Positions 5,705 to 34,220 of a stretch of 64,000 nt of DNA are shown in pieces (positions within the stretch are counted from its first letter, which is position 1; each line of letters starts with the position of its first letter). Source of the DNA: Nakamurella flavida. GTDB lineage: Bacteria; Actinomycetota; Actinomycetes; Mycobacteriales; Nakamurellaceae. The position numbers and the translations under genes are program-made. The notes under the pieces are model-generated. The model was given only the letters and a program-made list of their open reading frames with translations, was not told the DNA's origin and made no database searches. The stretch lies in assembly GCF_030811475.1 (NCBI RefSeq), contig NZ_JAUSQV010000001.1, forward strand, positions 3,049,001 through 3,113,000, in the 5' to 3' direction.

Positions 5705-8700
5705 ATGCACAAGATCTACGTCGTCGGGCTCGGTGGGTCGGGCGGCAAGACCCTGCAGTTCCTCATGGACCAGCTGACCACCGAGCTGCGTCAGCGGGGG
5801 TGGGACCGGGAGAAGCTCCCGCGGTGCTGGCAGTTCGTGCACGTCGACGTGCCCGCCCAGCCCGACGGGGTGGGGGACGGCCTGCCGCCGACGGTTCCCC
5901 AACAGGGTGGCACCTACATCCCGGTGACCACCCCGAACGATCACTACCGGCAGCTCGACCTCGGCCTGGAGCAGGCCCTGGCCCAGCCGTCGGTCAACCA
6001 GTTGCGCCAGCTCGTCCGCTGGCGGCCGGACGCCTCCCGGGTGACCACGCCGATCGTGCTCGGTGCCGGTCAGTTCCGGGCGGTGGGCCGACTGGCCACG
6101 CTGGCCCGGGCCCGGCAGATCTTCGAGGGGCTGCGGGATGCGGCCCAGGCCCTGAACTCCGGTGCGGCCAACGAGGACTTCGCGGAGCTCCTCCGGGTGC
6201 TCGGACAACGGAGCGCACCGGCCCAGGGGACGATGGTGATCGTGGTGTCGTCGCTGGCCGGCGGCACGGGCGCCTCCATGACGCTGGACGTCTGCAACCT
6301 GCTGCGCGGGGTCCAGCACGAGCTGCCCGACTTCCCCGGCGGGGAGGCGGTGGCCTACCTTTACACCCCTGACGTGTTCGGCAAGCTGGACGAGTCGGCG
6401 CGGGCCGGGGTCAATGCGAATGCCTTGGGCACCATCGCGGAGCTGATGAGTGCCCGGGCCGCCGCCCAGAAGCCGTGGACCACCCAGGAGTGGAACGTCT
6501 ACCGCGTCGGCCAGGCGCCGACGACGCCGGGACGCGGCCCCAAGGCAGTGTTCCCGGTCGGGGCGACCAATGGCATCAGCGGCGCGCTGTTCGGCGACGG
6601 CCGGTCCAACACCATCTACCGGGGCTTTTCCCGGGCGCTGTCGGCCATGGTGCTTTCGGAGGAGCAGCAGACCCAGATCATGAGTTACGTCGTCGCCAAC
6701 TTCGGCAACTCCGACGCCCTGCCGGACAACTCGGACCTGGCCTGGGCACCCGGCGGCGGCCGCGACGCCCTCGGGTTCGGTGCCATCGGCTTCGCCTCCA
6801 TCGGCCTGGGCCGGGATCGTTACGCCGAGTACGTCGCCCAGCGGCTGGCACGGCTCGCCGTGGAACGACTGCTCCGGGGGCACCACGACACGTCCGTGTT
6901 GCAGGGCCAGCGAACCGAGATCGAGGCCCGCGACCAGTACGCGGCCGACGGGTACCCCGTCCTGCTGGGCTGGGCGGGCCTGCCCCCGGTGCCGCCGGTG
7001 GACGAGTACACCCCGCTGCGGCAGTGGGTGGCCGACCTCTGGCCGGCGCAGCAGCAGGACCGGCTCGTTGGTGACGCCGTGCGGCGGCTGTTCGGCGAGG
7101 CGGCGCCGGCCGGGACACGGCAGAAGGCGAGCTGGTTCGCCCAGCAGCTCGGGGCCTCGATCCCGCGGTACCACCAGCAGGTGGCCCAGGCCGCGGACGC
7201 GGCGGCCCGGCAGGCTGCGGGCGCACGCTGGGTCGGTGCGATCCAGGCCCGGATCGAGGTGGCGGTCCTGCGCAGCACCGCCCGCTGGGGGATACCGGTG
7301 ACCCGGAGGATCGTCGATCGGCTGGGCGACGACCTGAAGAACTGGGCCGGCTGGCTGCGGGCCCGGTCGGCTGTCCCCGGCACGGGTGACCAGCTCGCTG
7401 GCGACGTGCTCACGCCGTTCTACGCAACCGAGGGGACCATCGACGCGCAGCACGCCCTGCTCGTCGAGGCCCGGCGCACTCTGCAGCAGCGCCTCGCCGA
7501 CCTGGCCCTTCGGTGCGGGGCCGCGGTAGCCGCCGACCTGGTCGACGGGCTGACCGCCGAGGTGGTCCGCCCGCTGGCGGCCGGCCTGGCCGACGTGGAG
7601 AACGGGCTGGTCGCCGCCGAGGCCGCGCGGGCAGTGGACGCGGTTGCCTCCTCGGTGCGCACGGGGGTCGTGCAGGCCTGGCCCTTCGGGGACGCGGTGC
7701 CGACCCGGTTCGCCACAGCGACCAACGAGGTGCTGTTGGAGAACATCGATTCCTATCCCTCCCGGTTCCGGGCCCACATCGAGGACACCTTCGGGACCAC
7801 GACCATGCCGTCCGGTGTCCGTCCGTCGGCGGAGGAGTCGCAGAACCTCGCCATTGAGCAGGTGATCACCTTCCTGACCTTGGATCCCAATGGCGCGTTC
7901 GGCGTCGACGGCGTCGAACAGCTCACCGCGTTCGGCGAGGACGCCCTGACTCCGGTGAAGATCGGCCGCCGGGGGAGCTGGTGGCCGCGGTTGCTGGCCG
8001 GTGCGGCCGCCGCGCAGACGGCGCGGTACGAGCCGCAGCTGACCGCCGCGACCCTGCTGGCTGGATCCCGGGCCTGGGTGACCCGTCCGGGTCAGCCGCT
8101 CCAGGCCTTCGTCCGGCAGGGTCTGCGCGCCTATCTGGACTCGATGAACCTGCAGGGCTCCCACCAGCGTGAGCGGTTGGAGGGAGAGTTCGCCAGTCGC
8201 TTCCGGACGGCACTGCAGCTGGCCGCGCCGCTGGTCGGGGTCCACCCGTCGATGGTCACCGCGGTGCACGGCGAACCGGTCAAGGTGTCGTACCAGTTCT
8301 CCGCGGCCCCACTGCGTTCCGCGCCGTCCGCGTTGCGCGAGATCACCCAGAGTATTCAGGCCGACCCGTCGATCGATTCCCGCCCCACCCTGGAGCGGCT
8401 CGAGCAGGCGCTGGCCACCGAGCAGGCCAACATCGACCTGCCCCGCATCGACATCGTCGGCACCTACGCCCAGCCCTACTCGCCGCTGGTGTTCACCTCG
8501 CTGCTGGGTCCAATCCAGCAACAGTGGGCCACGGCCATCGCCGCCCAGCAGCGGACCGCGTTCTGGCGTTGGCGTCGGGGCCGTCCACTGCGCGAGTTCG
8601 TCCCTGTCTCCCCGGCCTGGTTCCAGGCGTTCATCACCGGTTGGTTGGTCGGGCGGATCACCGGGGAGGTCCGCACCCCCCGCCCCGACGACCTGGACCA

Positions 8701-9295
8701 GCGGATCACCGTCTGGGACGACGGGGCGTGGGTGGCGTTCCCGGAGTCGCTGCTTGGCGTGCAGAAGATCAACCACGACGTGGACGGATGGGCGATCCCG
8801 GCCGCGGTGGCCGAGTCGCTCGCACTCGCGCTGGCGCAGTGCAATGCCGACCCGACGATGGCGGCCCTGCGCCCCTATCTGGCCACCCGGCGATTGGGGG
8901 ACGAGCTTCCGCTACCCGGCAGCGCCCGGCACGCCGCCCTGCACGCCTGGATCGTCAGCGGTGCATCACGATCGGGAGCGGCGCCGCAGATAGTCCGCGC
9001 CTCGGACGGGTTGGGCACCGCCGATGAGCGCCGCGAGACCGCGGTGGACTGGTTGACCCGGCTGCGGTCGTCCGTGGTGACCAAGCTGCTGCCGCACGAC
9101 ATATCCGGCGCCCCCGGCACCGGCCCGTTCGCCGAGATCACCCGGCACAATTTCATGGACGTTCCTCGGGAATGGGAGATCGCGGACAACCTGGTGCTCG
9201 GGGTGGACGAGGTCCTCGCCGAGCTGCAGCGGCCGGAGTACCGCGCCGACGGCCGTTCGACCGTCGTCGGTGGCATCGACGACGTGCTGGCGTAG
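5705..9295 (+). CDS. Tubulin-like GTPase family protein (1196 aa)
   Basis: The N-terminus (KIYVVGLGGSGGKTLQFLMD) is a Rossmann-like glycine-rich segment of the tubulin/FtsZ superfamily type. At about residues 174-195 the sequence VIVVSSLAGGTGASMTLDV matches the tubulin signature loop (GGGTG[ST]G-like, here AGGTGAS) that binds nucleotide phosphates. The remaining 1000 residues are mainly helical with no recognised catalytic motif. Length and layout agree with the Pfam Tubulin_2 ('tubulin-like') group of large bacterial proteins, not with FtsZ. The ATG at 5705 follows a good Shine-Dalgarno (AAGGGA, 5691-5696). It is 109 bp after the vWA gene and 8 bp before the next gene. By family analogy it may form a nucleotide-dependent scaffold. 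This is unproven. Confidence 0.75.
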   Translation: MHKIYVVGLGGSGGKTLQFLMDQLTTELRQRGWDREKLPRCWQFVHVDVPAQPDGVGDGLPPTVPQQGGTYIPVTTPNDHYRQLDLGLEQALAQPSVNQLRQLVRWRPDASRVTTPIVLGAGQFRAVGRLATLARARQIFEGLRDAAQALNSGAANEDFAELLRVLGQRSAPAQGTMVIVVSSLAGGTGASMTLDVCNLLRGVQHELPDFPGGEAVAYLYTPDVFGKLDESARAGVNANALGTIAELMSARAAAQKPWTTQEWNVYRVGQAPTTPGRGPKAVFPVGATNGISGALFGDGRSNTIYRGFSRALSAMVLSEEQQTQIMSYVVANFGNSDALPDNSDLAWAPGGGRDALGFGAIGFASIGLGRDRYAEYVAQRLARLAVERLLRGHHDTSVLQGQRTEIEARDQYAADGYPVLLGWAGLPPVPPVDEYTPLRQWVADLWPAQQQDRLVGDAVRRLFGEAAPAGTRQKASWFAQQLGASIPRYHQQVAQAADAAARQAAGARWVGAIQARIEVAVLRSTARWGIPVTRRIVDRLGDDLKNWAGWLRARSAVPGTGDQLAGDVLTPFYATEGTIDAQHALLVEARRTLQQRLADLALRCGAAVAADLVDGLTAEVVRPLAAGLADVENGLVAAEAARAVDAVASSVRTGVVQAWPFGDAVPTRFATATNEVLLENIDSYPSRFRAHIEDTFGTTTMPSGVRPSAEESQNLAIEQVITFLTLDPNGAFGVDGVEQLTAFGEDALTPVKIGRRGSWWPRLLAGAAAAQTARYEPQLTAATLLAGSRAWVTRPGQPLQAFVRQGLRAYLDSMNLQGSHQRERLEGEFASRFRTALQLAAPLVGVHPSMVTAVHGEPVKVSYQFSAAPLRSAPSALREITQSIQADPSIDSRPTLERLEQALATEQANIDLPRIDIVGTYAQPYSPLVFTSLLGPIQQQWATAIAAQQRTAFWRWRRGRPLREFVPVSPAWFQAFITGWLVGRITGEVRTPRPDDLDQRITVWDDGAWVAFPESLLGVQKINHDVDGWAIPAAVAESLALALAQCNADPTMAALRPYLATRRLGDELPLPGSARHAALHAWIVSGASRSGAAPQIVRASDGLGTADERRETAVDWLTRLRSSVVTKLLPHDISGAPGTGPFAEITRHNFMDVPREWEIADNLVLGVDEVLAELQRPEYRADGRSTVVGGIDDVLA

Positions 9296-9303
9296 GGGGA
9301 AAG

Positions 9304-11955
9304 ATGCATGTTCTCGTCGTGGGCCGGCTCGGTCGCCCGGAAACCGGCGCAGTCCGTGCCGTCCTGCATGACTGGTCGGCGGTCGGGCTCGTGGAGCCGT
9401 GTATGTGGGTCGACGCGGACGGTGATCCGCGGTCGGCCGTCCGGATCGTGGACGGGCTGGCCGAACGGGTCGACCTGCCGTTCTGGTTGCCCCGCAACCC
9501 CGGTCCGGTGCGGCTGGTGACCCTCCAGGTGTTGGACGGTCCGGACGCGGTCCTGCCCGCAGACGCCGTCCGGCGGGTGGCCGACGAGGTGCGCCTGCCG
9601 CCCGGGACGGTGGCCGTCAATGTCCTGGTCCCCGTCGACCGGTTGGCCCCGGTGTCCACCGACGCAGTTCACGATTCGCAGGTCAACATCCTGGTCCAGC
9701 CGGTGGACGGCAGCACCCCGGTGTCGGCCACCGAGCCGCTGACCGTCCGATCGCCGATGTTCCCGGCCCACGGTGCGGCGGCCCTGGCCACCGCTGCCGG
9801 ACTGTGGACGGGGATGGCGGCCGCGCCGCTGGACGCCGAACGTCCGTGGTCGGGCACCCTCCTGGCGGTCGCCCGCTCCTACCACCGTCGACTGGACGCG
9901 ACACCCGTCGTCGACCGGCTCGCCGCCGAGGTGTTCGGCCGCGACGGCACGCTGCCGGTGACCCGGTCCTCCCTCGGCGAACCCCTCGGTGTGGTCGCAG
10001 CCCAGGCACCGGCTGCGGAGGCTGCCGCACGGGCAGTGCTGGACAAGCACGCCTCGGTGACCCGGTTCCACCCGCCGCCGGTGTTCCGACCGCCGCCCTC
10101 GACACGACTCTCCTTCGGCGGAGCGGCCAAGATGTTCGCTTCCTTCGTGGGACGCGCACTGCTGCACTCACCGCAGAACTGGGCCCGGGCGATGCTGGAG
10201 GCGGCCAAGAACCGGATCGAGACCGGCACGACGTCCTGGATGTTCGGCAACGAATCCCGCTACGCCGTGGTGCTGAACGGCCTGCAACCGGGCGGGGGCG
10301 ATCAAGCCACTGCGTTGCAGCACTCGGCGCAGGCGCTGCTGGGCCTGGCCCAGGGCAGCGAGCCGCCGTCGGTGGCGGCGGCCGAGCTGTGGAACGACAC
10401 GGTGCGCACGGCCGCGTCGCTGGTGGACGGAGGGCACCCTGTGACGGGCGTACCCCTGCCTACCCAGGGGTCGTTGCGGCTGGTGCTCGACGATCCCTCT
10501 CGGGTGGTTCCCGCCCCCGGGACCCCGGCGTTCCCGGTGCCCGCCGAGGCCCCCGGGGGGCGGTCCGGTCCGATCGCTGCCAATGACCCGTACCACGCCC
10601 TGCAGGTCGAGCGGGAGCTCGACCGGGTCGCCGCAGACCTGGGCGCGGGAACAGGACCGGGGGTGGCCCAGGCCGCCGCCGTGCAGCGATTGCGATCGGA
10701 CCTGCATCACTGGCGAGAGCAGCACCGCAGCTTCGGTGTCGGGATCGGTGTCGGGCTGGCGAGTGAACTGGAGCAGGCCCGGCTGATGCAGGCCGACGTC
10801 CTGCAACCCGTCCCGGAGCTCACCGAGGAGGAACTGCAGGCGCCGCTCCGGGCGCAGGCTCGCGCCCGGCGGATGGTCTTCGTTTGGCTCGGCGTCCTGG
10901 TCCTCCTGCTGGGCGGCGGCGGTGCCCTGTGGGGCAACGGGCTGATCGGCGGGGGGGTGTTCGCCGGGGTTGTCGTGGTGTCCTTGCTGTTCTGCGTCCT
11001 GGGGGCGATCGCCAGCTTCCAGCGCGGTCAGCGGGCGTTGTTTAAGGCGCTGTACCGGCTCGACGTCCAAGCCGCCCGGCGGACCTGGCTCCGGGAGCAC
11101 GCGGTGACGGTCACCCAGGAGGTGGTCCGGCTCGCCGGGCTCTATCGACAGAGCCGGATGTGGTCCGACGTGCTGGCCCAGCACGTCCACCAGCCCTTCG
11201 GACGGTTGACCGACCAAGTGGCGGGGGGCTTCCCGAGCACGCTCTCGGGTGATCTGCCCTTGGCCATGTCGGTCGCAACCGCCCGGTTCTCCCCGGACGA
11301 GCACGAGGCGGTGGTCTACCAAGCACGCGGGCAGATGTTGCGCCCCGGTTGGCTGGCCGAACAGATCCGCCGCCGCCAGAATCTGGTGCTCGCCCAGGTC
11401 GAACGTCGGACCGGGCGTCAGCTGGAGAGTCGACTGGGCTCAGACGTTGAGCTGGGTGCGGAGGGGCCGTTGGCGTCTTACCTGCATGGTCTGCGGGATC
11501 CGGACCTGCAGGCGCTGGCCCGGGAAGCGGCCATCGCCCGCCTGATCGAGACAGTCGACGGCCAGACGTCGGGTACGGCGTCCGACCGCCTGCTGTCTCT
11601 GGTCCGGGTGGATGCCGGAGCGATGCGCGGTGACCACGACTGGGCGTCCGTGGCAGCACCGTTGACCCAGCCGGTCGATCAGCTGGCCCACGAGGGGTTC
11701 AGCGCCACCGGCATCACCAACGGCTCCAGCCGGGTGGCGCGGACGTTCCTGGCCGCGTACCCCGCTCCTGTACGGGAGGGCTTCACCACAATGGCGGTCC
11801 CGCCTTCGCTGGGGCGGCATCAGCTGGACCGCACCGTCATCAGGCTCGATCTGTCACGGCCCGTGCCGCTCGACGACCTTGCATCCTTCGGCGAGTCCGG
11901 CCAGCAGCCGCCCCCGGCGGCGCAGGGCGGCTCCGTCATCGACGTACGGGCCTGA
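9304..11955 (+). CDS. Large membrane protein of unknown function (883 aa)
   Basis: No family was recognised. About 520 residues precede a hydrophobic hairpin of two TM helices (about residues 523-573, MVFVWLGVLVLLLGG and GGGVFAGVVVVSLLFCVLGA). About 300 helical, Arg-rich residues follow. A Pro-rich linker lies near residues 258-270, and a helix before the membrane (ELTEEELQAPLRAQARARRM) is amphipathic. Both flanks are probably cytoplasmic, because there is no signal peptide. The ATG at 9304 is preceded by GGGGGAAAG and starts 8 bp after the tubulin-like gene, so the two are co-translated neighbours. It may be the membrane anchor for the tubulin-like protein, by inference from position only. 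Confidence 0.6.
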   Translation: MHVLVVGRLGRPETGAVRAVLHDWSAVGLVEPCMWVDADGDPRSAVRIVDGLAERVDLPFWLPRNPGPVRLVTLQVLDGPDAVLPADAVRRVADEVRLPPGTVAVNVLVPVDRLAPVSTDAVHDSQVNILVQPVDGSTPVSATEPLTVRSPMFPAHGAAALATAAGLWTGMAAAPLDAERPWSGTLLAVARSYHRRLDATPVVDRLAAEVFGRDGTLPVTRSSLGEPLGVVAAQAPAAEAAARAVLDKHASVTRFHPPPVFRPPPSTRLSFGGAAKMFASFVGRALLHSPQNWARAMLEAAKNRIETGTTSWMFGNESRYAVVLNGLQPGGGDQATALQHSAQALLGLAQGSEPPSVAAAELWNDTVRTAASLVDGGHPVTGVPLPTQGSLRLVLDDPSRVVPAPGTPAFPVPAEAPGGRSGPIAANDPYHALQVERELDRVAADLGAGTGPGVAQAAAVQRLRSDLHHWREQHRSFGVGIGVGLASELEQARLMQADVLQPVPELTEEELQAPLRAQARARRMVFVWLGVLVLLLGGGGALWGNGLIGGGVFAGVVVVSLLFCVLGAIASFQRGQRALFKALYRLDVQAARRTWLREHAVTVTQEVVRLAGLYRQSRMWSDVLAQHVHQPFGRLTDQVAGGFPSTLSGDLPLAMSVATARFSPDEHEAVVYQARGQMLRPGWLAEQIRRRQNLVLAQVERRTGRQLESRLGSDVELGAEGPLASYLHGLRDPDLQALAREAAIARLIETVDGQTSGTASDRLLSLVRVDAGAMRGDHDWASVAAPLTQPVDQLAHEGFSATGITNGSSRVARTFLAAYPAPVREGFTTMAVPPSLGRHQLDRTVIRLDLSRPVPLDDLASFGESGQQPPPAAQGGSVIDVRA

Positions 11956-11986: not shown

Positions 11987-13089
11987 CAGTCGACCGTGCG
12001 TGCGCACTCGGCCAGCCCACGGGCCAGCAGGGGGACGTCCACCGGCGTCACCGTCACCGTGACCGTCCGCGGGCCGCTCGGCTGCTCGGCGCTCACGGGG
12101 GCGCCCACCAGCACCGTGACGACCGACGCTGGCAGGTGCGCGGGCAGGGAGGGGTCGTCGGTGAGGACGATCTGCAATCCGCCGTGTCCGGCCCGCCGTT
12201 CGCACTCGGCGATCAGGTGCGTCCGGTTGCCGGTGACCAGGCCCTGCGCCGTGAGCTGGTCGAAAAGGGCTGAGCCCGGATCGGCTTCCAGCGACAGTTC
12301 CCGTGTGCTCCCGCCGGGTAGAAAGCTGGTGGATACCGCCGACTGTGACGACGCGCCGGCCACTGCTTGCACGGCGCGGAGCGCGGCCGCCAGGCGCCCG
12401 TCGACGAGGGCGGGCCGCATCGAGGCGGAAAGGTCGACCAGCGCTGCCACCGACGAGCGCCGCCGCACCGCCCCTGACGACCTGGCCGCGTCCACCGCGG
12501 CCTGCAGGTGGGCCGGGACAGGAACGGATCGCACCGGCTCGCCGTCGATTCTGGGCTGCCCGCGCCGGTCGGCAGCCGGCCCGGGGTTCGTCCGTGCCGG
12601 GCTGTCCGCCCGGGAGGCCGGTGCCGGGTCCGGGACCGTATCCGTCTCTGCAGTATGGGCCGCGTCGGGAGTCTCGGGCTGGGCCAGCGCGAGGATCCCC
12701 CAGCCCGTGGCGGTCCGCAGAAGCTCGAGGACCAGGGTGCTGCACCCCGGTTCTACCGACGCCCCCGGATGCAGGACGGAGTCGTCGGGGTTGCCGGTCA
12801 GCGGTGACACGGCCACCCCGACCACCCGGGGGGCGGCCGGCTGGACGCTCAGCCGGAGCCGGTCGACCCCGCCGGGAACTCCGTCGAGGTTGATCCGCCA
12901 CTCCTCGCCGCTGCGGGCGGTGTCACGCTGCAGCCACCGCAAGCCCGTGCCACCCTCCCAGCGGTGCTCGCCGTCCGGGCCGGTCCACCCGGCGGTGGCG
13001 GTGTCCCCGGGACGGAAACCCTGCCATTCGACGCGCAGTTGGGCCGCAGGGGCTGGAACGGGCTGGTGGAGCTGGAGGTGGACGGCCAT
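11986..13089 (-). CDS. TerD-like plus vWA domain fusion (367 aa)
   Basis: The N-terminal part (about residues 1-150) has TerD-family features: an INLDGVPGGVDRLRLSV segment like the TerD beta-strand preceding its acidic Ca2+-binding loops, and LVLELLRTATGWGILALAQ like the conserved E-L-Y-R-x-x-x-W ending. A vWA domain follows with the MIDAS sequence VAALVDLSASM (DxSxS). TerD and vWA (TerY-like) proteins belong to the tellurium-resistance/stress-signalling group, and here they are fused. The start at 13089 was chosen because AAGGGA lies 6 nt upstream. An ATG two codons earlier has no spacing. The gene is divergent from the P-loop protein gene and convergent with the preceding block. No signal peptide is present, so it is cytoplasmic. 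Confidence 0.65.
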   Translation of the reverse strand: MAVHLQLHQPVPAPAAQLRVEWQGFRPGDTATAGWTGPDGEHRWEGGTGLRWLQRDTARSGEEWRINLDGVPGGVDRLRLSVQPAAPRVVGVAVSPLTGNPDDSVLHPGASVEPGCSTLVLELLRTATGWGILALAQPETPDAAHTAETDTVPDPAPASRADSPARTNPGPAADRRGQPRIDGEPVRSVPVPAHLQAAVDAARSSGAVRRRSSVAALVDLSASMRPALVDGRLAAALRAVQAVAGASSQSAVSTSFLPGGSTRELSLEADPGSALFDQLTAQGLVTGNRTHLIAECERRAGHGGLQIVLTDDPSLPAHLPASVVTVLVGAPVSAEQPSGPRTVTVTVTPVDVPLLARGLAECARTVD

Positions 13090-13236
13090 CAGCATTCCCT
13101 TCACGGTCAGGCTGGGCCTGAACAGTAACAACGAACCCCGCGCGCGGGGCGGCCGCCCACGGCTCGCCCCCGACGGGCCATCCCGACAGGGCACATACCG
13201 CCAGGGCCCGGTCCTGCACAGCACGAGGATGACGCG

Positions 13237-16200
13237 ATGACGAGCACCAAGGACGCGGCTGAGCAGCTGGCCCTCCGCATGTACGCGCTCCGCGACGAGT
13301 ACGGGCTGAAGCTGGTCGATGCGGTGATCCGGCAAGCGGCGAAGGACGCCGGCGGCACCCTCGAGTCGCTGGACCGACGGTTCCGGATGGCTGGGCTGCC
13401 GCAGCCGCGGAACATCCTCCGACAGCTCGTCGAGCTCCGGACCACAGCCGAGAAGGCGCTGCCCCCGCCTTCACCGGGATTTGTCGTCGACGGGCCGACA
13501 CCGGACGCCCCCGTCTCGCCGCCGGTGCCGGCCGCTCCCGCGTGGGCGGGTCCCCCCGCCTGGTACGACCGGATGACGCGGGACGAGCCGACCCCCCCGC
13601 CGAACGGGCCGCCGGTCGCGGCTCCGCCGTCCCCAGCCGGGCCGCCCAGCTGGTACACCCCGCCGGAGCTCGACGTCCCACCGGCTGCAGTGAATCCGCC
13701 GGCTGCGCGGAGTTCGCCGGCTGCGCAGGTCCCGCCGGCTGCGCAGACCGACCCGTATCCGGGTATCCCGTCTGGGTCTGCGGGCGCCTCCCGGCTTCCG
13801 GTGACCGAGGCGGACCTGGTCGACCCGCTCAGGCTCTCGGCCCGTTGTGACGTGTTCGGCGCGGTGGACGAGCGGCTGCAGATCCGTACCGACAACGGGC
13901 GAGTGATCCTGCGCTGGCCGGCGGCCGCCGACCTGGGATCCGATCCCGTCTACCTGGTGGTGGCCGCCGACGCGGTCGTTCCGGAATCCCCGGACGACGG
14001 GCATCGGGTGGTGGCCAGCCTCCTCAACCAGGTGATCGTGCCCGGGGGGAGCGGCCCGGCCTTTGCTGTCTTCGCCTACCCGGTTTCCCACGCCGGCGAG
14101 CTGGGCAGCGCGACGGGTGTCCGGCAGGCCATCGGCCGGGTGGTTCCCGAGGTCGGGGACCTCCATCTGGAGGCGCAGGAGCACGGGGTGCTGCTGAGCT
14201 GGGTCCGACCGGCCCGTGCCGAACGCGTGCGGGTGATGCGTTCGTTGCCCGACGAGCCGTTGCCGTCCCGGCCCGACCCCTCATTGCAGGTTTCCTTCTC
14301 CGGTGACGCCTTCCGGGACGCCGATGTGGAGCCGGGCTCGACCTACGAGTACCGCGTCTACACGGAGTCCCAGGCGATGGGCGGCAGTGGGATGTGGGAG
14401 TCGTCCACCGGCGTGACCAGGCAGGTCACCGTCCCGGGCCGGCCGAGCGCCGTGGATGACCTGCAGGCCCACGTCGACGTGCGGTCCCGCCGGGCGGGCG
14501 TGTCGGCGAGCTGGACGGCGCCCCGGCGGGGTCGGCCGCGGGTGTACCTGCGCGCCGGGGAGCCTCCGGACGACGTGGTCGCCGGCGCTGTTCTGTCCGC
14601 CGAGCAGTTCGCCATGCAGGAGACGCTGCTGGGTCTCCAGGTCCGGGAGCCGGTGATCACGCGCGAGGGCCGGCAGACGATGGACTGGATCGCTCTGGAC
14701 GACCAGGACGCCGAGGGGAGGACCTCCCGCTGGACGGTCTCGGTGGTGACAGAGTTCGCCGGCCGGACGGTCATCGGTGCGCAGCGGGTGGTCGTGCACG
14801 TCGGGGACGTCACCGAGGCTGCGGTTGAGGAGCGGACCGATTGGCAGCTGCTGCGGGTGACCTGGCCCGCCGGCGCCACCTTCCTGGGCATCTGGACGTT
14901 GCCGCCCGGGACACCGACCACCGGCGGCCCGCACCGTCGGGTCACCCGGGACGAGTTCGACACCGCGGGTGGGATCGCCCTGCAGTTGGAGCCGCATGCG
15001 CAGGATCTCGTCGTGCAGGGCGCAACGCGCTACGGCTCGACCTGGGTGACCGGCGGCGTCGAGCGGGTGACTTACCCGGGTCGGTGGGTGGTGCGGTACC
15101 AGCTGGTGGCCGGAGGGCGGTTCGGGGGCTCCCGGCTGCTGCAGGTCGCGGTGGAACGGCCGGACTGGCCGGAGATCGGTCTGGAGCTCGTCGCCGGCAC
15201 TCAGGGCTTCCCGCTCACCGTGCCCGGGCCTGGTGTCGACGCCCTGTTCCACGGTCGGATGCCGACAGGCTCGCTGGTCCCGGGGCAGTACGTGCCGGCC
15301 AGCGCCGAGATCCGGGTGCCGAAGGGCGCGGCGGTGCGCCTGCGAGTCTCCGGCCCGTCCGGCCTGGAACCGCTCGTGGTGGACCCGCTCGATGCGGTGA
15401 ATCCGCCGCCCCCACCCGGCCCCGTCCCCGTCCTGCGGTGCCCGCGTTGCCTGCGCGGGACCGACCTGGCCGTACAGGCATTCCGGTGCCAGGGCTCCTG
15501 CCGCGAGGAACCGGACCTGCCGCAGACGGCCCTGCTGGACCCGGGCATGCCGCCGCGTCCGGAGACGATGCGCCGAGGCAAGCCGGTGTTCACCGTCTCT
15601 CGAGCGGTTGACACCGATCGTCCCTTACCGTCGTTCGCCGCACCCGTGGGCACGGCGGTATGTCCCCGGCCGAACTGCGGGCGGCCGAGCCATGAGCACG
15701 TGTGTCCGCACTGCCACACGACACTGCCGCCGAACTGGTGGGCACAGGAGGTGCTGGGCGTGGTGGTGGTGGGCGCCCGCAGCTCGGGCAAGACCACCTA
15801 CCTATCCCTGTTAATCCGACATCTGGAGCAGAACCTGCTGCCGTCGGTGCACGGCAACCTTCACCCGGTTGACGCAGCGTCCGAGGCCAAGCTCGACGTC
15901 ATGCGCCGGGGTCTGATGGCGGGGCAGCTCGCTGAGGGCACGCAGGGCGCGGAGCAGAACCTGCCCCTGCTCGCCCCGATGCTGGCCGGGATCGGCACGG
16001 GGCCGCATGGCCGCGGCCGCAACCTGGCCCTGTTCGACGTGGCCGGTGAGGACATGTCCACCGCCGAGGGGGTGCGGCTGTACAGCCCGGCCTTGTCCGC
16101 GGCGGACATGGTGCTCATCCTCATCGACCCGTTGCAGTTGGACGGGGTGCGGGAATGGCTGGACGGAACCGTCCCGCTTCCTCCGCGCGGGGCGCCGCCG

Positions 16201-16647
16201 GCCAGGGTGGTGCACAACGTCGTTCAGCAGATCCGTCGGCAGGCTGGGGTGCCGACCGGCCCGTTGCCGGTCCGGGCAGCGGTGGCTTTCGCCAAATTCG
16301 ACGGTCTGCAGGCGGCGGCGTCGATCCCGCAGTCGAGCATCGGCGATCTGATCGGCCCGGGCAACGCCCTGTGGCGGGACCCGTACGTCGGCCGATCCGA
16401 GTTGTACCTCGAGCCGGACGGGCGGCGGGTCCATGACGAAGTTCGCGCCCTGCTGGTCCGGATGGGCGAGTCCGGTCTGGTCGCCTTGGTCGAGGACTCC
16501 TTCCGTCAGGTGCAGTACTTCGCGGTCTCCGCCCTGGGCCACGGGCCCCGCGGTCGTCAGGTGTCCGCGGCGGGTGCCAGCCCGCAGCGAGTCGGCGACC
16601 CGCTGCGTTGGCTGCTGTGGAACGCCGGGTGGGACGGCCGTCGATGA
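13237..16647 (+). CDS. Zinc-ribbon P-loop GTPase, DO-GTPase-like (1136 aa)
   Basis: The layout is: a helical N-terminal module (about 1-75); a Pro/Ala-rich linker (about 75-190) with PPAA repeats; beta-rich regions (about 200-700) that include fibronectin-III-like stretches near PGRPSAVDDLQ; two zinc ribbons (CPRCLRG...CQGSC and CPRPNCGRP...CPHCH, about 733-830); and a P-loop NTPase at the C-terminus. The Walker A is GARSSGKT (residues 846-853), the G3 is LFDVAGEDM and a G4-like strand is AVAFAKFDGL. This matches the TRAFAC-clade 'double-GTPase 2' family, which is usually paired with a GAP1 protein, and such a protein is encoded next. The ATG at 13237 has ACGAGG 8 nt upstream. Biochemical activity is inferred. 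Confidence 0.7.
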   Translation: MTSTKDAAEQLALRMYALRDEYGLKLVDAVIRQAAKDAGGTLESLDRRFRMAGLPQPRNILRQLVELRTTAEKALPPPSPGFVVDGPTPDAPVSPPVPAAPAWAGPPAWYDRMTRDEPTPPPNGPPVAAPPSPAGPPSWYTPPELDVPPAAVNPPAARSSPAAQVPPAAQTDPYPGIPSGSAGASRLPVTEADLVDPLRLSARCDVFGAVDERLQIRTDNGRVILRWPAAADLGSDPVYLVVAADAVVPESPDDGHRVVASLLNQVIVPGGSGPAFAVFAYPVSHAGELGSATGVRQAIGRVVPEVGDLHLEAQEHGVLLSWVRPARAERVRVMRSLPDEPLPSRPDPSLQVSFSGDAFRDADVEPGSTYEYRVYTESQAMGGSGMWESSTGVTRQVTVPGRPSAVDDLQAHVDVRSRRAGVSASWTAPRRGRPRVYLRAGEPPDDVVAGAVLSAEQFAMQETLLGLQVREPVITREGRQTMDWIALDDQDAEGRTSRWTVSVVTEFAGRTVIGAQRVVVHVGDVTEAAVEERTDWQLLRVTWPAGATFLGIWTLPPGTPTTGGPHRRVTRDEFDTAGGIALQLEPHAQDLVVQGATRYGSTWVTGGVERVTYPGRWVVRYQLVAGGRFGGSRLLQVAVERPDWPEIGLELVAGTQGFPLTVPGPGVDALFHGRMPTGSLVPGQYVPASAEIRVPKGAAVRLRVSGPSGLEPLVVDPLDAVNPPPPPGPVPVLRCPRCLRGTDLAVQAFRCQGSCREEPDLPQTALLDPGMPPRPETMRRGKPVFTVSRAVDTDRPLPSFAAPVGTAVCPRPNCGRPSHEHVCPHCHTTLPPNWWAQEVLGVVVVGARSSGKTTYLSLLIRHLEQNLLPSVHGNLHPVDAASEAKLDVMRRGLMAGQLAEGTQGAEQNLPLLAPMLAGIGTGPHGRGRNLALFDVAGEDMSTAEGVRLYSPALSAADMVLILIDPLQLDGVREWLDGTVPLPPRGAPPARVVHNVVQQIRRQAGVPTGPLPVRAAVAFAKFDGLQAAASIPQSSIGDLIGPGNALWRDPYVGRSELYLEPDGRRVHDEVRALLVRMGESGLVALVEDSFRQVQYFAVSALGHGPRGRQVSAAGASPQRVGDPLRWLLWNAGWDGRR

Positions 16648-16656
16648 GGCCTCCGC

Positions 16657-19485
16657 GTGGGGGCCGGGCGGGTTGAGATGACGATCCGAGGGCAGTTCAC
16701 CTACACCGCGTGTCAGGTTGCGGGGCCGTACACGACCGTTCCGGGATGGAAGGTCAAGGAGGTCGTCGGCGTCGACGGGGGCCCGATTCCCCCCGAGAGC
16801 GTGGTGCAGGCCGCGGTCCGCCCGTTCGGGGGGACCGCCATGCCGCCGGTGCCCGCGCTGGCAACCCAGACCGAGATCGACGATCTGCCCCGCTGCCTGC
16901 GGCTGGACGTCCTGGACGAGACCACCCGAAGCGTCGCCCACCTGGCGGTCGCCGGTCGGGATCACTCCGGTCGGGACGCGTTCTTCGCCCACGGCATCCT
17001 GGTCGACCTGACGCCGGGGCGGCCGCCGGTGGATCCTGATCAACTCGGATCGGTGGACCGGGGCCTTCCCCGGCCGGCAGACCTCTGGGGCGCCCAGGGG
17101 TGGTCCACGCCGTTCCGGGCCGAGGCGATCGAGGCCGAACGGCTGGGCAGGTTGCCCAGGCTATCCGGCTCATCACCGATGGACCCCGAACGTCGTGAGG
17201 ACTTCGTGGACCTGCACCCCGGTCAGCGTGAGTTCGTGCTGGCCGCGGCGGAGCGGGCGCTGACGGGCGGCCCGCCATTGGTGGTGGTCGGTCTCCCCGT
17301 CGAGGCTGCGATGTGGACGTCGGTCCTGACCCACCTGCTGGTGCCGACCTGCGGCTGGTCCGTGCCGTTCTCCACCGTCGAGCGTGGCCACCCCCCTGCG
17401 GTGTTGGACGGCGGGTCGATCGTCGTCGGCGTCCCGGACGCCGGGCTCTGGTCGTCGGTGCCGGCCGACGCCGCGTCCGTGCTCGATCCGGGCCGGCTCC
17501 GGGCAGGACCCGACCCGGCGGTGTTCGCCCTTCCCGGCGGGGGGACCCTGGCCGCCGGACCGTGGGCCCGGCTCGCCGAGGGCCTGTGCCGGGCGGGCCT
17601 TGAGGACCGGGTGCGGGACGCGGTGGATGCCCTGGGCGCCCGGGTCGGCCGAATGAGCGACGACAGGCCCTGCTGGGGACTGGCCGCAGCGCTGCTGGCG
17701 GGCGACGGGATCGCCCCCCCGCTCGTCGACCTGGTCCCGGACCTAGCGCACCTGGCCCAGCAGGTCTTCGCGGCGCACCTGCCAGCCCGGCTCCTTCTCC
17801 CCGTCGACCTCGTCGACGCGGTGCTGGCCGCCGTCGCCCGGGGCGGGTCGGTCGACAGCGGTCCCGGAGCGGCCGGTGCGATGACGGCGTTCCTCGGCGC
17901 GCTGCAGGACGCCGGCGCGACCACCGCGCTGGAGGGTTTCCAGCGCGGCCATCTGCGGCGGATCCTGTACGAGCGGTCCGCGTTCACGGCGGACCTGCCG
18001 TTCGTCCCAGCCGTCCGGCCCGCCCCGCCGGGGTCGCCGGAGCGGGCCGGTGAGCAGGAGCGGTCCGGGTGGGTCGACCGGGAGACCGACCCCTTGGTGC
18101 AGGCGCGTTGGCTATTGACCCTCGTCGCGATCGGTGCGGGGGACGGCCGCTGGAGCGGGCCCAGCGGGGAGCGCGCCCGGTTCTTCGTCACCGAACGCGC
18201 CCGCCTCTGGGTCGCCCCGCTCCTGATGTCGGGCGCGGCGATCGCCTCCGGCGGTTGGCCGAGGTTGCCCGACTGGTTGTGGACCGAGGTGGAGGGCGCT
18301 CTGACCGAGACGCCGCCGACCGAGCTGGACCGGGCCCTGGGCTCCCCCGCGGTGCGCGGGGCGCTGGACCGGGCCGGCGGACCGCTGCCCACGGTGTTCA
18401 GCGCGAGGGTGACCCTGCCGGGGCTGTCCCCGCTCGCGTGTCGACGAGCCGCGGCCGAGCTGCGTGCGCGTCCCCAAGACGGCGGCCGGGGCGGGGCTTC
18501 GGATGCCGACCAGATCCTGCGGGCCGCCGCCGTCCTGGCCCCCCTGCCTGACGGGTCTCCGGTGGCGGCCGCGATCTTGCTGGGTGAGGTCGACCGGTGC
18601 TTCCCCGGGCGGCAGGTCCGCACCGATGTGCTGGACGACCTGCTCACCGAGGTCGCCGTCCGTCACCCCGGAACCGACGTGCGGGCGGTGGCTGTGGCCG
18701 TACTAGGCCGGACGCCGCCCTCGCCCGCCGCGGCCGCTCTGGCCGGGCGCCTGGTGCGCGAGCACCCCGGGCGCACCGGCGCCGAACTGCTGACCTGGCA
18801 CCAGGTTGTCGTCCGGCTGCCGTCGACGCCCTGGTTGGCCGAGGGCCACCGTCTCGCTCGTCGGCCCTCGGTGCCCGAGCAGCAGGTCCTCGAAGCGGTG
18901 GTGGACGGGCGGCTGGCACCCGCGATGGCCGCGGCCGGGCAGATGTATCTGGCCCGCTGGGTGATGATCCAGCCCGCCGCGGTGTTCCTGACCCCCGGTC
19001 CCCGCGACGCCGGGGAGTTCAACCTGGAGTCACCCCGCCCACGTTGGCTGGCGGCCGCGGCGGGGTCGGGCCTGCGGTCGGCGGTGGCCCCGACGTGCCG
19101 GCAGGCGAGCGAGGCGCTGGTCCACGACCTGCGGGACGGAGCCGACGACGGGAGCGCCCGGGTGGAGCTTGCCGCGCAATGGCTCGTCCGGGCGCTGCTG
19201 GCGCGCCGCGGACTGGCCGACGCCGACCCGGCCAAGGATTTCTTCGGTGGGTCGCGGCCGGACGGCCGGCCCGACTGGTTCCGGGCGGTACGAGCGCTTG
19301 TGGGGCGCGGTGACCCGTCCCTCACGCAGAAGTTCGGTCATGCGGTGATGGAGGCAGCCGACCTGGCCCACCGTGCCAGCCGCCCCATCGCCCGGGGGTT
19401 GGGAGCAGAGGCGTTGCAGGACGTGGAAGAGGTCCTGGCCACGCTTGGCAACGTACAGGACACGAGGGGGGCACGAAGACCATGA
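16657..19485 (+). CDS. GTPase-associated protein 1 (GAP1)-like protein (942 aa)
   Basis: The N-terminal domain has the GAP1-N style pattern: an opening FTYTACQVAG strand, then GWKVKEVVGVDGGPIPPE, and RDAFFAHGILVDL near residue 110. The remainder is a long helical and alpha/beta region without recognised catalytic motifs. GAP1 proteins are predicted partners of double-GTPases, and the gene starts 9 nt after the stop of the P-loop GTPase. GTG at 16657 was chosen because GAGG lies 7 nt upstream. An internal ATG at 16678 (MTIRGQF) is a good alternative. Its stop overlaps the next start (ATGA). A GTPase-regulating role is a family-level prediction only. Confidence 0.6.
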   Translation: MGAGRVEMTIRGQFTYTACQVAGPYTTVPGWKVKEVVGVDGGPIPPESVVQAAVRPFGGTAMPPVPALATQTEIDDLPRCLRLDVLDETTRSVAHLAVAGRDHSGRDAFFAHGILVDLTPGRPPVDPDQLGSVDRGLPRPADLWGAQGWSTPFRAEAIEAERLGRLPRLSGSSPMDPERREDFVDLHPGQREFVLAAAERALTGGPPLVVVGLPVEAAMWTSVLTHLLVPTCGWSVPFSTVERGHPPAVLDGGSIVVGVPDAGLWSSVPADAASVLDPGRLRAGPDPAVFALPGGGTLAAGPWARLAEGLCRAGLEDRVRDAVDALGARVGRMSDDRPCWGLAAALLAGDGIAPPLVDLVPDLAHLAQQVFAAHLPARLLLPVDLVDAVLAAVARGGSVDSGPGAAGAMTAFLGALQDAGATTALEGFQRGHLRRILYERSAFTADLPFVPAVRPAPPGSPERAGEQERSGWVDRETDPLVQARWLLTLVAIGAGDGRWSGPSGERARFFVTERARLWVAPLLMSGAAIASGGWPRLPDWLWTEVEGALTETPPTELDRALGSPAVRGALDRAGGPLPTVFSARVTLPGLSPLACRRAAAELRARPQDGGRGGASDADQILRAAAVLAPLPDGSPVAAAILLGEVDRCFPGRQVRTDVLDDLLTEVAVRHPGTDVRAVAVAVLGRTPPSPAAAALAGRLVREHPGRTGAELLTWHQVVVRLPSTPWLAEGHRLARRPSVPEQQVLEAVVDGRLAPAMAAAGQMYLARWVMIQPAAVFLTPGPRDAGEFNLESPRPRWLAAAAGSGLRSAVAPTCRQASEALVHDLRDGADDGSARVELAAQWLVRALLARRGLADADPAKDFFGGSRPDGRPDWFRAVRALVGRGDPSLTQKFGHAVMEAADLAHRASRPIARGLGAEALQDVEEVLATLGNVQDTRGARRP

Positions 19486-20648
19486 CCACAGGTCCGACAT
19501 CAGGCCCGGATCAGGATCCGCGGGCGAACAGTCCGTGGGACGAGGCGCCGACTCGGCAGATCCCCGCGGTGCGCCGGCCGGACTCCCCGGGGCCCACGCC
19601 GCAGGCTTGGGGGCAGAGCCCACCCGAGCCGGGACCACCACCCTCGGAGGTCGCACCGGTACCCGGTCCGCCTCCGCCTGTCGAGCCCCCCACCAGCCTG
19701 CGTTTCGATCTCCCGCCACCTGTCCCCGCCTCTCCGATGGCGCGGCCGGTACCGACACCTGGCTCCCGCCCGCCTCGGTCCGGGCCGCTGACGGTGGTGG
19801 CGGCGGTGCTGGCGGTAGCGATCGTGGCCGTCCTGGTCATGGTGGTTGTTCGGCCCTTCGGTGGAACAGCCGCCCCGCCGCCCACGCCGACCGGAGGTGT
19901 GAATACTTCGTCGACACCGTCCACCACCGGGGGGTCGGCGACCACGACGCCTGCCACCACGGCGGCGACGACGTCGTCGGCGCCCTCGGTGCTCACCGTA
20001 ACCAGCGTGCAGACCGTCAGCGCCGCCCCGCCCCCGGCGGTGACGACCACCTCGGTGCCGGTGGGGCTGGCCGGTCTGACCGAACGGAGCCTGGACTGCT
20101 CCGCCGGGTCGGGGTACCTGGTTCAGCTCGCCTCCGAACTGGACGAATCGGCCTTTGTCCGCCGGGTCGAGGAGATTCGGGCCGCCGGCACGCTACCGGC
20201 CGACGCGACCTACCTGACCGCACAGGGGGACTGCGATCTGTTCACCGTCCGCGACAACCTGTGGGTGCTGTACTCCGGCCCCTTCACCGAGGTCGAACAG
20301 GCCTGCCCCGACCGGCTGGCCGGGCCGGTGGACGGGTTCGTCAAGGGCGCGACCCAGGCGTCGAAGGGCACTTACGTGGGGTGTGTCTGCGTGACGGCGG
20401 CGACCGCACTGCCCGTCCTGGGGACCGGGTCGACCGGGGCCTGGGTGGGCGAGATGCAACGCGCGTTGCGCGTCGAGCTGGATTACGACCTGTCCGACCT
20501 GGACACCGATCCTGCTCTGTGGGGGGTGTACGGCGGTCGAACCCAGGCCGCGGTGGGTCAGGTCCAAGAGGCGGCAGGACTGCCCGTCACCGGAATCGTC
20601 GATGCACTGACCTGGCAGGCCGTGCAGTTCGATGCCTGCCAGGCGTGA
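19482..20648 (+). CDS. Membrane-anchored SPOR-like/peptidoglycan-binding protein
   Basis: This 388-aa protein has a cytoplasmic Pro-rich N-terminus (about 1-100), one TM helix (about 102-126, VVAAVLAVAIVAVLVMVVV), a Thr/Ser/Pro-rich extracellular stalk, and a region resembling SPOR (GYLVQLASELDESAFVRRVEEI ... LWVLYSGPFTEVEQA). The C-terminus is a PG_binding_1-like domain (EMQRALRVELDYDL ... GGRTQAAVGQVQEAAGLPVTGIVDALTWQAV). It would tether the encoded complex to the cell wall. The ATG overlaps the GAP1 stop (ATGA), giving translational coupling. It is the last gene of the block, and the HspR-controlled clpB follows. Confidence 0.7.
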   Translation: MTTGPTSGPDQDPRANSPWDEAPTRQIPAVRRPDSPGPTPQAWGQSPPEPGPPPSEVAPVPGPPPPVEPPTSLRFDLPPPVPASPMARPVPTPGSRPPRSGPLTVVAAVLAVAIVAVLVMVVVRPFGGTAAPPPTPTGGVNTSSTPSTTGGSATTTPATTAATTSSAPSVLTVTSVQTVSAAPPPAVTTTSVPVGLAGLTERSLDCSAGSGYLVQLASELDESAFVRRVEEIRAAGTLPADATYLTAQGDCDLFTVRDNLWVLYSGPFTEVEQACPDRLAGPVDGFVKGATQASKGTYVGCVCVTAATALPVLGTGSTGAWVGEMQRALRVELDYDLSDLDTDPALWGVYGGRTQAAVGQVQEAAGLPVTGIVDALTWQAVQFDACQA

Positions 20649-20716: not shown

Positions 20717-20816
20717 TTGCCGCGTTGATCCAGGTGTCGGCGGCGTGGACCGTGTCGTCGACCGCCGCCACATCGCTCGCCACCGGGAACCCCGGGGAAG
20801 GACTGCCGTACCGCCG

Positions 20817-23411
<2,595 letters not shown>

Positions 23412-23434: not shown

Positions 23435-23459
23435 CCGCGGCGGGCTCAGCCCGTCGCGG
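23435..23459. terminator. Hairpin between convergent clpB and GGDEF genes
   Basis: CCGCGGCGGGCT and AGCCCGTCGCGG form a 12-bp stem with one G-U pair around a one-base centre. The left arm starts 24 bp after the clpB stop, and the hairpin overlaps the stop codon of the GGDEF gene. It could serve both strands. There is no U-tract. Confidence 0.45.
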
Positions 23460-25542
23460 TGCTCCCGCGGCGGGCCGTGCCACTGCGCCGCCGGTCCCGC
23501 TTGGCGGCGAGCAGGCCCACGTCGGCCCGCGCCACCAGCGGCCACAGGTCCCGAGGGGCGTCGACGCGGCCGATCACCGTGTGGTTCACGCCGATCGACA
23601 CCGTCATCCCGGCGGGCAGTGCCCGGGTGACGCCGTGGACCCGGTCCAGCACCACGGCCGGGTCCGCGGTGGACATCACCACGAACTCGTCACCCCCGCT
23701 GCGACCGACCACGGTGCGGGCATCGGTCAAAGAGCCCAGCACGCGCGCCAGATCGACCAGCGCCGCGTCCCCGCCGACGTGTCCGAGGCGGTCGTTGATG
23801 GCCTTGAAGTCGTCGACGTCCAGCGCCACCACGGTGACGGTGTCACCCGGCCGTGCGCGGGCGAAGGCCTGATCCAGGCCCCGTCGGTTCGCCAGCGCGG
23901 TGAGCGGGTCGGTGACCGCCGTCGCCTGCAGGGTCAGCACGGCACTCTCGTGGTCGCGGCGGACCAGGTGCAGCAGTTCGCCGGCGACCACCATGCTCAC
24001 GGTCAGCACGAGCACGGTCGCCGACGCCGCCGGTTCGGCCACCAGCACCACGGCGGCGGCGGCGACCGCCAGGCCCACCGTCACCAACCGGGCCACCGGG
24101 GGGCTCAGCGCCAGCCCGAGCACGAGCACGCCCAGCAGCAACGGGGACAGGGCGAACAGTCGCGTCACCTCGTCGACCGCCGTCGCCGCCACCAGCAGGG
24201 CCTCCGCCACGGTGACCGTGGCCCCGGCCACCAGCAGCTCCCGGGTCAGGGGTGCGCGGAGCGCAGCCATGGCCGTCCCCACCAGGGCGCCGGTGATCGC
24301 CACCCCGATGAGCGCGGCCGTGCCCAGCGGCCCGGGCACGATGCGATGGACGAGGCACAGTCCGAGCAGGGCCAGGTTGATCAGGGCGAACGGCACGCCC
24401 AGCAGGGCCGGGTGCGCCGGGGTCAACGGGCCGGGGGAGCGGCCCACCCGTGGTCGGATCATCGGTGCCGCGGGCCGCTGCGGAGCTCGCGTGACCCCGG
24501 GGCGTCCCCGCCGGAGGGTGTCGCGCCCGGCGCGCTTGGCGTCGTACAGCCCGCGGTCGGCGTCGGCGACCAGGGTCCACCAGGTCGCCGGCGTCAGGCC
24601 CCGGGCGTCGACGTCCACGAAGCCGATGCTCACCGTCACGTCGGGATGGGCCGAGTCGGCCAGGCGGGCCCGGATGCGCTTGGCGACCGTGGCGGCCGGA
24701 CCCACGGTGACGACCACCATCTCCTCGCCGCCGATCCGGCCCACCAGGTCCCCGTCACCGGCCGCTCCGGTGATGATCCGGCAGACCTCCTGGAGCACGC
24801 GGTCGCCGTGGTCGTGCCCGTGCCGGTCGTTGAGCTGCTTGAAGTGGTCGATGTCGATCACCAGGACACCGACGGAGTCCTCGTGGCGCTGCGCCCGGGC
24901 CAGCAGCGCGGGGAACGCGGTGGTCAGGCCGCGGCGGTTCAGCACGTCGGTCAGGCCGTCGGTCAGGGCGGCACGGTGCAGGCCGGCGAACCGGGAGTGG
25001 GCCCGCAGAGCCGTGTGCCGGACGAGCAGACCGGCGGCGGCCAGTCCGCCGGTCAGCAGGACCAGCGACAGCACGGCGTCGGGGACGTCGGACGCCCCCC
25101 GGGTGACCACCGACGCGGAGGTCAGGACCGCGCCGCACCACTGGATCCGGTGGACCGTGGCGTCGGCGATCATCGCGACCACGACGGTGGCGAGGGCCAA
25201 CCAGGCCATCGCGGCCGCGGTGGGCAGCAGCGGGACGCTGGGCAGCGCGGCCACCACCACCCACGCGTCGATGAGGAACAGCGCGGCCGTCAGGCCACCC
25301 CGGGTCTGTCGACGGCCCCGGAGCAGGGTCGCGGCGAGGGCCAGCGAGGGCAGGACCAGAGCCAGCACCAGCGTGCGGGCCCGCAGATCGGGCACCTGTC
25401 CGGCCACGGCGCCGGTGAGCGCGAGCGCGCCGACGAGCAGGACCGTCGCCAACAGCAGTCCACCGACCACGCGACCCGGTCGGGGGAGCGCCGTCCGCAG
25501 CTCGAGGTCCTCCCCCGGTCGGGGGACGGCGAGGAAGAACAC
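23446..25542 (-). CDS. Membrane protein with two TM-GGDEF modules (698 aa)
   Basis: This is a putative c-di-GMP synthase with internal duplication: TM block 1 (about 25-185), GGDEF 1 (about 190-345, motif VGRIGGEEMVVV), TM block 2 (about 385-515) and GGDEF 2 (about 530-690, motif VGRSGGDEFVVM). Both carry metal-binding Asp residues (DIDHFKQLNDRHGHDHGD and DVDDFKAINDRLGHVGGD). Neither has an RxxD inhibitory site just upstream of the signature. The first has Met in place of the final Phe and could be weaker. No EAL or HD-GYP domain is present. The GTG start at 25542 is preceded by GGAAGGGGG with 7-nt spacing. The long intergenic region upstream suggests its own promoter. Confidence 0.85.
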   Translation of the reverse strand: MFFLAVPRPGEDLELRTALPRPGRVVGGLLLATVLLVGALALTGAVAGQVPDLRARTLVLALVLPSLALAATLLRGRRQTRGGLTAALFLIDAWVVVAALPSVPLLPTAAAMAWLALATVVVAMIADATVHRIQWCGAVLTSASVVTRGASDVPDAVLSLVLLTGGLAAAGLLVRHTALRAHSRFAGLHRAALTDGLTDVLNRRGLTTAFPALLARAQRHEDSVGVLVIDIDHFKQLNDRHGHDHGDRVLQEVCRIITGAAGDGDLVGRIGGEEMVVVTVGPAATVAKRIRARLADSAHPDVTVSIGFVDVDARGLTPATWWTLVADADRGLYDAKRAGRDTLRRGRPGVTRAPQRPAAPMIRPRVGRSPGPLTPAHPALLGVPFALINLALLGLCLVHRIVPGPLGTAALIGVAITGALVGTAMAALRAPLTRELLVAGATVTVAEALLVAATAVDEVTRLFALSPLLLGVLVLGLALSPPVARLVTVGLAVAAAAVVLVAEPAASATVLVLTVSMVVAGELLHLVRRDHESAVLTLQATAVTDPLTALANRRGLDQAFARARPGDTVTVVALDVDDFKAINDRLGHVGGDAALVDLARVLGSLTDARTVVGRSGGDEFVVMSTADPAVVLDRVHGVTRALPAGMTVSIGVNHTVIGRVDAPRDLWPLVARADVGLLAAKRDRRRSGTARRGSTATG

Positions 25543-34214: not shown

Positions 34215-34220
34215 GCTAGC
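34215..34220. repeat. Left target-site duplication of the IS481 element
   Basis: GCTAGC directly borders the left IS end and is repeated at 35308-35313. It agrees with the NCTAGN 6-bp target preference known for IS481. It also supplies the TAG stop of the transposase gene. Confidence 0.85.

Follow-up and report, generated by a model that had tools for sequence, protein, structure and literature searches.

The DNA analysed here is a stretch of 64,000 nucleotides from Nakamurella flavida (contig NZ_JAUSQV010000001.1, positions 3,049,001 to 3,113,000), referred to as the window, and it carries on its forward strand a single gene (13237–16647) for a protein that joins fibronectin (FN)-like modules, two zinc ribbons and a DO-GTPase domain; judged by profile comparison, each half of this fused gene has its homologue in related loci, where an FN gene and a GTPase gene stand apart. 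The locus is of a published kind, the tubulin-themed, GAP1-N2-type DO-GTPase system of Actinobacteria; the system type is thus already described, and the FN–GTPase fusion is what appears to be new here. We hold it moderately probable that the fused protein is the sensor and the switch of such a system encoded as one polypeptide, coupled in cis, which would work with a GAP1 partner and control a tubulin-like protein.

The fused gene and its separately encoded relatives

The fused gene is laid out as follows:
13237–16647 (+), the whole fused gene: helical N-terminus, proline-rich linker, FN-like modules, two zinc ribbons and DO-GTPase
13237–13461 (+), N-terminal module, predicted helical (residues 1–75), whose position matches the N-terminal module of separate FN proteins
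13462–13794 (+), Pro/Ala-rich linker (residues 76–186), recognised by composition
13795–15420 (+), FN3-like beta modules (residues 187–728), whose homologue in relatives is an FN gene of its own
15421–15744 (+), two zinc ribbons, with cysteines 735, 738, 751 and 755 and cysteines 809, 814, 823 and 826
15745–16644 (+), DO-GTPase domain with G1, G3, G4 and G5 motifs

The open reading frame (ORF) is intact, begins with ATG, encodes 1136 amino acids and has exactly the bounds 13237–16647 (+). Genes throughout the analysis were called by a simple codon-position script and no trained gene finder. The GC fraction at the third codon position is 0.81–0.95 in every 80-codon block (the last block being shorter), so that coding is unbroken across the FN/GTPase junction. 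The product is a single chain without predicted transmembrane (TM) segments, and an Rfam search of window positions 1–26000 gave no match.

Ten loci were compared by means of component profiles built from the window, the congener G013 and Geodermatophilus tzadiensis (L038/G577), with G440 added to the tubulin profile and the small von Willebrand factor A (vWA) profile made from the window and L038 only; the GAP1 loci of G163, G227, G407, G424 and G301 stand outside the ten-locus count, and the weak tubulin matches of G571, G717 and G725 were left out of the comparison. FN and the zinc-ribbon GTPase share one ORF in three of the ten loci (the window, G013 and G577) and occupy different ORFs in the other seven (G380, G440, G700, G597, G645, G736 and G763). 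The three fused seeds match their own profiles by construction, and the informative matches are those of the separate genes, which were found by the fused-type profiles with expectation values (E) of 1.7e-24 to 4e-50 for FN and 1.4e-26 to 1.6e-52 for the GTPase. Similarly, when profiles of the fused three were aligned with those of the separate seven, the FN parts matched at E 2.7e-41 over 430 columns and the GTPase parts at E 4.4e-46 over 299 columns, against 0.45 for an unrelated control.

A wider set of 59 loci was obtained by searching for the GTPase in 394 genomes of the class (56 matching; 30 loci) and in 112 genomes of the family of G577 (25 with some match, above 150 bits in G577 only; 29 loci). 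Within flanks of about 1.5 kb, FN was observed in the same ORF at 2 loci (the window and G577), in a separate ORF at 24 and not at all at 33, three of which (L113, L114 and L116, that is G440, G380 and G597) do have an FN gene farther off; as the flanks are this short, the missing FN at the 33 loci is uninformative and the adjacency at the 24 is partly built in. The separate FN ORF lies on the GTPase strand in 24/24, at a gap of −7 to 8 bases in 17 and of 38 to 199 bases in the remaining 7, where the start calls are unsure.

In a tree of 43 GTPases, built without weak or short matches and without loci that already stood as rows, the three fused GTPases group in a single clade (support 99/96). 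At 96/92 this clade joins with 10 separate GTPases, of which six come from tubulin-bearing loci. One origin for the FN–GTPase fusion would be the simplest reading. In the same tree the GTPases of L118 and L119 (G1046 and G1121, from another family of the class) group beside tubulin-bearing loci and perhaps represent further tubulin systems.

The spacing of the separate genes bears on a different account, in which the fusion is neutral, a stop codon having been lost between adjacent co-translated genes with no new coupling, and in which a separate GTPase may come from an internal start. As the two genes lie end to end or overlap in 17 of the 24 more distant loci, one small change could fuse them, and GTG or ATG codons near the junction were observed in the fused genes of the window, G013 and L038, which makes a second, internal start possible. 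However, these candidate starts have no clear ribosome-binding site when read by eye, and the fusion has been kept, within one clade, in three divergent species, the fused proteins of the other two being 32–36% identical to that of the window. We regard a neutral fusion as rather unlikely.

Domains of the fused protein

The initial annotation had called the C-terminal part a P-loop GTPase, and a GTPase family match and GTPase motifs are both present. The DO-GTPase2 family (PF19993) matches residues 842–970 in the protein scan at 25 bits, under the cut-off of 27, and reaches 27.1 bits, above the cut-off, in the genome search, so that membership appears borderline by profile and firm by the motifs GARSSGKT (846–853), DVAGED (934–939), AKFDG (1019–1023) and SALG (1098–1101). 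The first P-loop G, the GK, DVAGED and the K and D of xKxD are kept in 10/10 aligned homologues, and the DO-GTPase hallmarks (P-loop, Walker B with a conserved Glu, and xKxD) are all present in the fused protein. The two zinc ribbons of the annotation are likewise borne out by eight cysteines in two ribbon patterns within residues 729–836, the GTPase domain holding none and the FN region one; these predicted ribbons correspond to the one or two N-terminal zinc ribbons that 60% of DO-GTPase members have. A sequence profile of the GTPase gave 16 weak PDB matches (E up to 1, best E 0.03), mostly P-loop proteins. The stress GTPase YcjX is cited beside DO-GTPase in PMC11237479, a term that the relevant part of that paper uses once, in the phage-shock-protein (PSP) context; YcjX is possibly a solved relative of the window GTPase and is absent from the 16 PDB matches.

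The proline-rich linker was found as annotated, residues 76–186 being 32% Pro and 17% Ala. The FN-like region in front of the ribbons is more diverged. No Pfam fn3 match was obtained in the fused window protein, and among six FN proteins of relatives that were scanned, two showed fn3 below the cut-off, namely L037 (E 0.0058) and L038 (E 0.023). A 10-row profile of the FN region gave seven PDB matches at E up to 10 (best E 0.038), six of which are titin (two), myomesin, collagen XX, RPTP-mu and a 'Fn3-like protein', and five of these six fall at profile positions 113–220. We take the matched stretches to be FN3 domains, as the title of the last states for itself. This evidence is weak but consistent and suggests that residues 187–728 form a diverged FN3-like array, of which one module is supported and the others we infer. 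The fibronectin-like modules of the initial annotation are homologous to the separate FN genes; as FN3 they are weakly recognised. The helical module that it placed at the N-terminus was modelled as four helices over residues 1–75, at low confidence only (pLDDT about 33–42). An identity of this N-terminus as HRDC is unsupported, with no Pfam HRDC match and no profile match to the N-termini of separate FN proteins, and a PIN match to residues 9–50 (E 0.017, under the cut-off) was taken as chance. In the separate FN protein of G700 (L054:13598–16168, −), two helical modules instead of one seem to precede the FN part, as judged by eye. As for the whole chain, 'modular signalling hub' is a fair reading of its anatomy, signalling being a putative function. 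More informative is that the order of the modules is that of a fusion between proteins which are separate in seven of the ten loci.

The operon, its published counterparts and its distribution

The genes around the fused gene are as follows:
1850–2674 (+), small membrane protein with two predicted TM segments, encoded ahead of the vWA gene, its actual start probably lying inside these bounds
2665–5595 (+), membrane vWA protein with a DTSGS metal-ion-dependent adhesion site (MIDAS) and one TM segment near residue 700
5705–9295 (+), tubulin-like protein (Tubulin_2) with an AGGTGAS loop and a long C-terminal part
9304–11955 (+), conserved membrane protein, two predicted TM segments, no Pfam family
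11989–13095 (−), small vWA protein with a DLSAS MIDAS, divergent to the fused gene
16657–19485 (+), GAP1 with a GAP1-N2 domain, for which the homologous start may be ATG 16678
19482–20648 (+), single-TM protein with a peptidoglycan-binding domain, a possible local accessory, overlapping the GAP1 stop by 4 bases

The initial annotation had noted a GAP1 partner gene behind the fused gene, and GAP1-N2 was indeed detected in the gene directly after it at 36.4 bits (cut-off 24); GAP1-C was not among the Pfam families listed for this protein. GAP1 stands for 'GTPase-associated protein 1' (PMC7159879) and not for a proven GTPase-activating protein, so stimulated hydrolysis is to be taken as hypothetical. 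The tubulin-like protein matches Tubulin_2 at 155 bits over residues 6–386 of 1196, as a single tubulin gene with an extra C-terminal part, and the membrane vWA protein has a vWA match of 28 bits and one TM segment, the published counterpart being described with FNIII and a beta-rich domain, of which the FNIII was not detected here. In L038/G577 the fused gene likewise has a small vWA gene next to it, as it does in G013 on the evidence of the profile, and the small vWA protein and the two-TM protein are further conserved parts of the system, named in this analysis. The peptidoglycan-binding protein may serve the system locally as an output or an anchor; behind GAP1 in G013 no counterpart of it was called. 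In Geodermatophilus tzadiensis a TerD-domain protein (L038:3562–4059, +; 52.6 bits) is encoded upstream of the membrane vWA gene, two genes away, and the small vWA protein of L038 shows a match below the cut-off to the vWA-TerF-like family; the system may have a link to Ter stress genes.

In the published account, DO-GTPases and GAP1 co-occur and co-vary, and FN proteins are proposed as sensors (Kaur, Burroughs, Iyer and Aravind 2020, PMC7159879), the FNIII proteins being described there as separate components fused to HRDC, vWA, DnaJ or TPR. The window has in common with the actinobacterial tubulin theme of these authors a zinc-ribbon DO-GTPase, GAP1-N2, one tubulin gene with a long C-terminal part, a membrane vWA protein and an FN-like protein, and differs from it (PMC7159879) in holding FN and GTPase in one gene, in having no detectable HRDC and in the second GTPase not being found. 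An FN–GTPase fusion goes unmentioned in the FNIII, fibronectin and HRDC text of that paper, whose figures or supplements may show one. The HSP70-themed GAP1-N2 locus G060 has the same order of FN gene, zinc-ribbon GTPase and GAP1-like gene as the window (its Hsp70 and GAP1 being judged by eye), but there the FN gene and the GTPase gene are distinct and overlap (gap −1), and no tubulin gene was recognised.

The sampled relatives show how far the system is scattered. The congener G013 is identical to the window by 45% in the tubulin, 32% in the TM protein, 37% in the membrane vWA protein and 32% in the fused protein, its GAP1 matches that of the window at E 5e-19, and its small vWA protein was found by profile only; Geodermatophilus tzadiensis (L038/G577) has counterparts of the membrane vWA, tubulin-like, TM, small vWA and fused genes. 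A whole-protein search of named genomes gave no relative, and a tubulin alignment search gave two loci, with L039 (5.6 kb, from a Saprospiraceae metagenome-assembled genome) dropped, having no gene call. A tubulin match was present in 2/17 searched genomes of the genus and in 12/397 sampled genomes of the order, three of the 12 being weak. Among the control genomes, that of Corynebacterium glutamicum gave matches to both DO-GTPase2 and GAP1-N2. The system stands beside clpB in the window and on a contig other than that of clpB in G013, and around clpB in seven congeners (G001, G006, G007, G009, G012, G013 and G014) no called gene matches the membrane vWA, tubulin, TM, fused or GAP1 proteins of the window. 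Given this spotty occurrence and differing location, the system is an accessory one with a history of gain, loss or relocation; whether such an accessory system served defence or envelope maintenance, its patchy distribution would fit equally.

Two views of what such an operon does can be set against these data. In the first, it is a cytoskeleton-like machine for membrane remodelling, not defence, whose GTPase regulates the tubulin-like protein in growth or envelope stress. Membrane remodelling was proposed for Tubulin_2 (FtsZl1)/vWA/GTPase operons by Makarova and Koonin (2010, PMC2875224), and the operons described there share with the window a tubulin-like protein, a membrane vWA protein and a soluble GTPase, some of the GTPases being fused to a Cys-rich domain, whereas an FN fusion and GAP1 are unmentioned in the relevant text of that paper. 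The membrane and peptidoglycan-binding components of the present operon agree with such a role, but the scattered tubulin matches and the differing place in two congeners fit an accessory system more than core physiology, and we consider remodelling possible and hold it with some doubt. In the second view, the operon is a conflict system against invaders, in which FN modules sense the invader and GTPase and GAP1 set the threshold for a tubulin polymer effector, as proposed by Kaur et al. (2020, PMC7159879). Of the actinobacterial tubulin theme the main parts occur here (HRDC was undetected, as was FNIII in the membrane vWA protein), the distribution is patchy, and the FN part diverges more than the tubulin between window and congener (29% against 45% identity). 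On the other hand, a PADLOC search with seven locus proteins at E up to 0.1 matched 0/7, Pfam recognises no enzymatic effector in the operon, and the literature searches made found no experiment on these operons and no functional test. An anti-invader role is a serious possibility to which we give slightly less than an even chance.

Several genes near the system were observed in addition. A short Hsp70 of 497 amino acids lies at the window edge (172–1662, −) and scores 413.6 against a DnaK equivalog cut-off of 648. HSP70 is a theme of other GAP1-N2 systems, but this gene was rejected as a part of the present one, with no match in the called genes at L038, G013, G440 and G380, nor in the next 10 kb of G013. 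Behind the system lies clpB (20745–23411, +), whose surroundings differ in the seven congener clpB regions, an Hsp70 match occurring within the fetched stretch in 5/7; a gene for a protein with two GGDEF stretches (23446–25542, −) adjoins it. Transposase-like genes of insertion sequences, with a helix-turn-helix start as seen by eye, were observed at 34216–35148 (−) in the window and at L038:243–1166 (+).

A proposed sensor and switch in one chain

In the mechanism that we propose, the FN array and the N-terminal helices, carried on the flexible linker, would bind a ligand or partner, and the zinc ribbons would relay this binding to the GTPase, setting whether it is in its GTP or its GDP state. 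GAP1 would bind the GTPase, and in the GTP state the two would permit or trigger the assembly of the tubulin-like protein, or its anchoring at the membrane, by way of the TM and vWA proteins; physiologically, the system would protect the envelope or defend the cell against invaders. That the GTPase is active, that it binds GAP1, that it controls a polymer and that the system has any part in defence are points that we infer. Gene fusions often join proteins that touch, and for this reason the present case adds coupling in cis to the scheme. The fusion would set the FN:GTPase ratio at 1:1, and coupling in cis would be the simplest model for the family. A bolder proposal, namely that the fusion shows the functional unit common to all DO-GTPases, in which an FN array acts as receptor, controls a zinc-ribbon GTPase in cis and thereby gates the assembly of a non-FtsZ bacterial tubulin at the membrane, seems to us quite improbable. 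We know of no bacterial counterpart of a single-chain receptor-switch of this type.

A number of observations, together with the candidate internal starts and the empty PADLOC search, count against the sensor-switch reading. In the seven separate loci the FN and GTPase genes are not adjacent and other genes lie between them, including GAP1 where it was detected, so the closest relatives lack the gene order that would most easily give rise to a fusion; taken with the adjacency in the short-flank set, FN–GTPase adjacency is therefore a trait of the more distant loci. GAP1 itself was found at E 1e-4 in 7/10 loci and not in G597, G645 and G763, GAP1-M in the GAP1 of the window scores 14.4 bits against a cut-off of 24 (it is above the cut-off in L038, L036 and L037), and G380 has no tubulin, membrane vWA or TM gene within 20 kb. 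No second GTPase copy was found in the genome by the family profile (one match in all); two paralogous copies occur in 38% of published systems and are not obligatory, according to the text of PMC7159879. For the fused sequences, the program that built the tree cautions that long branches meet there. Alignment of the N-terminal module with the N-termini of separate FN proteins by hhalign gave E 0.21, with 0.45 for an unrelated control pair, so homology there is unsupported. A structure prediction for the whole fused chain, built on 2 rows, reached pLDDT 33 and was of no use. Similarly, the GTPase-only model is weak (pLDDT 46, pTM 0.51); Foldseek with this low-confidence model gave no match at E 0.001, the best being the PAB0955 GTPase (E 0.003), and its first 50 matches include some unrelated enzymes, such as transaldolase, while the 50 rows of VIA-align are all GTPases or GTPase-like domains by title, at Z 6.2–7.5 (advised Z 8). 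As the model is weak and the fold matches are not firmly significant, the GTPase call rests on the motifs.

For these operons two ideas are in print, membrane remodelling (2010) and immunity (2020). A natural fusion points to which two parts are likely to touch, and the fused chain makes the effect of FN on the GTPase directly assayable. In this little-understood tubulin-linked system of bacteria, the fusion suggests that two of the parts work as one switch.

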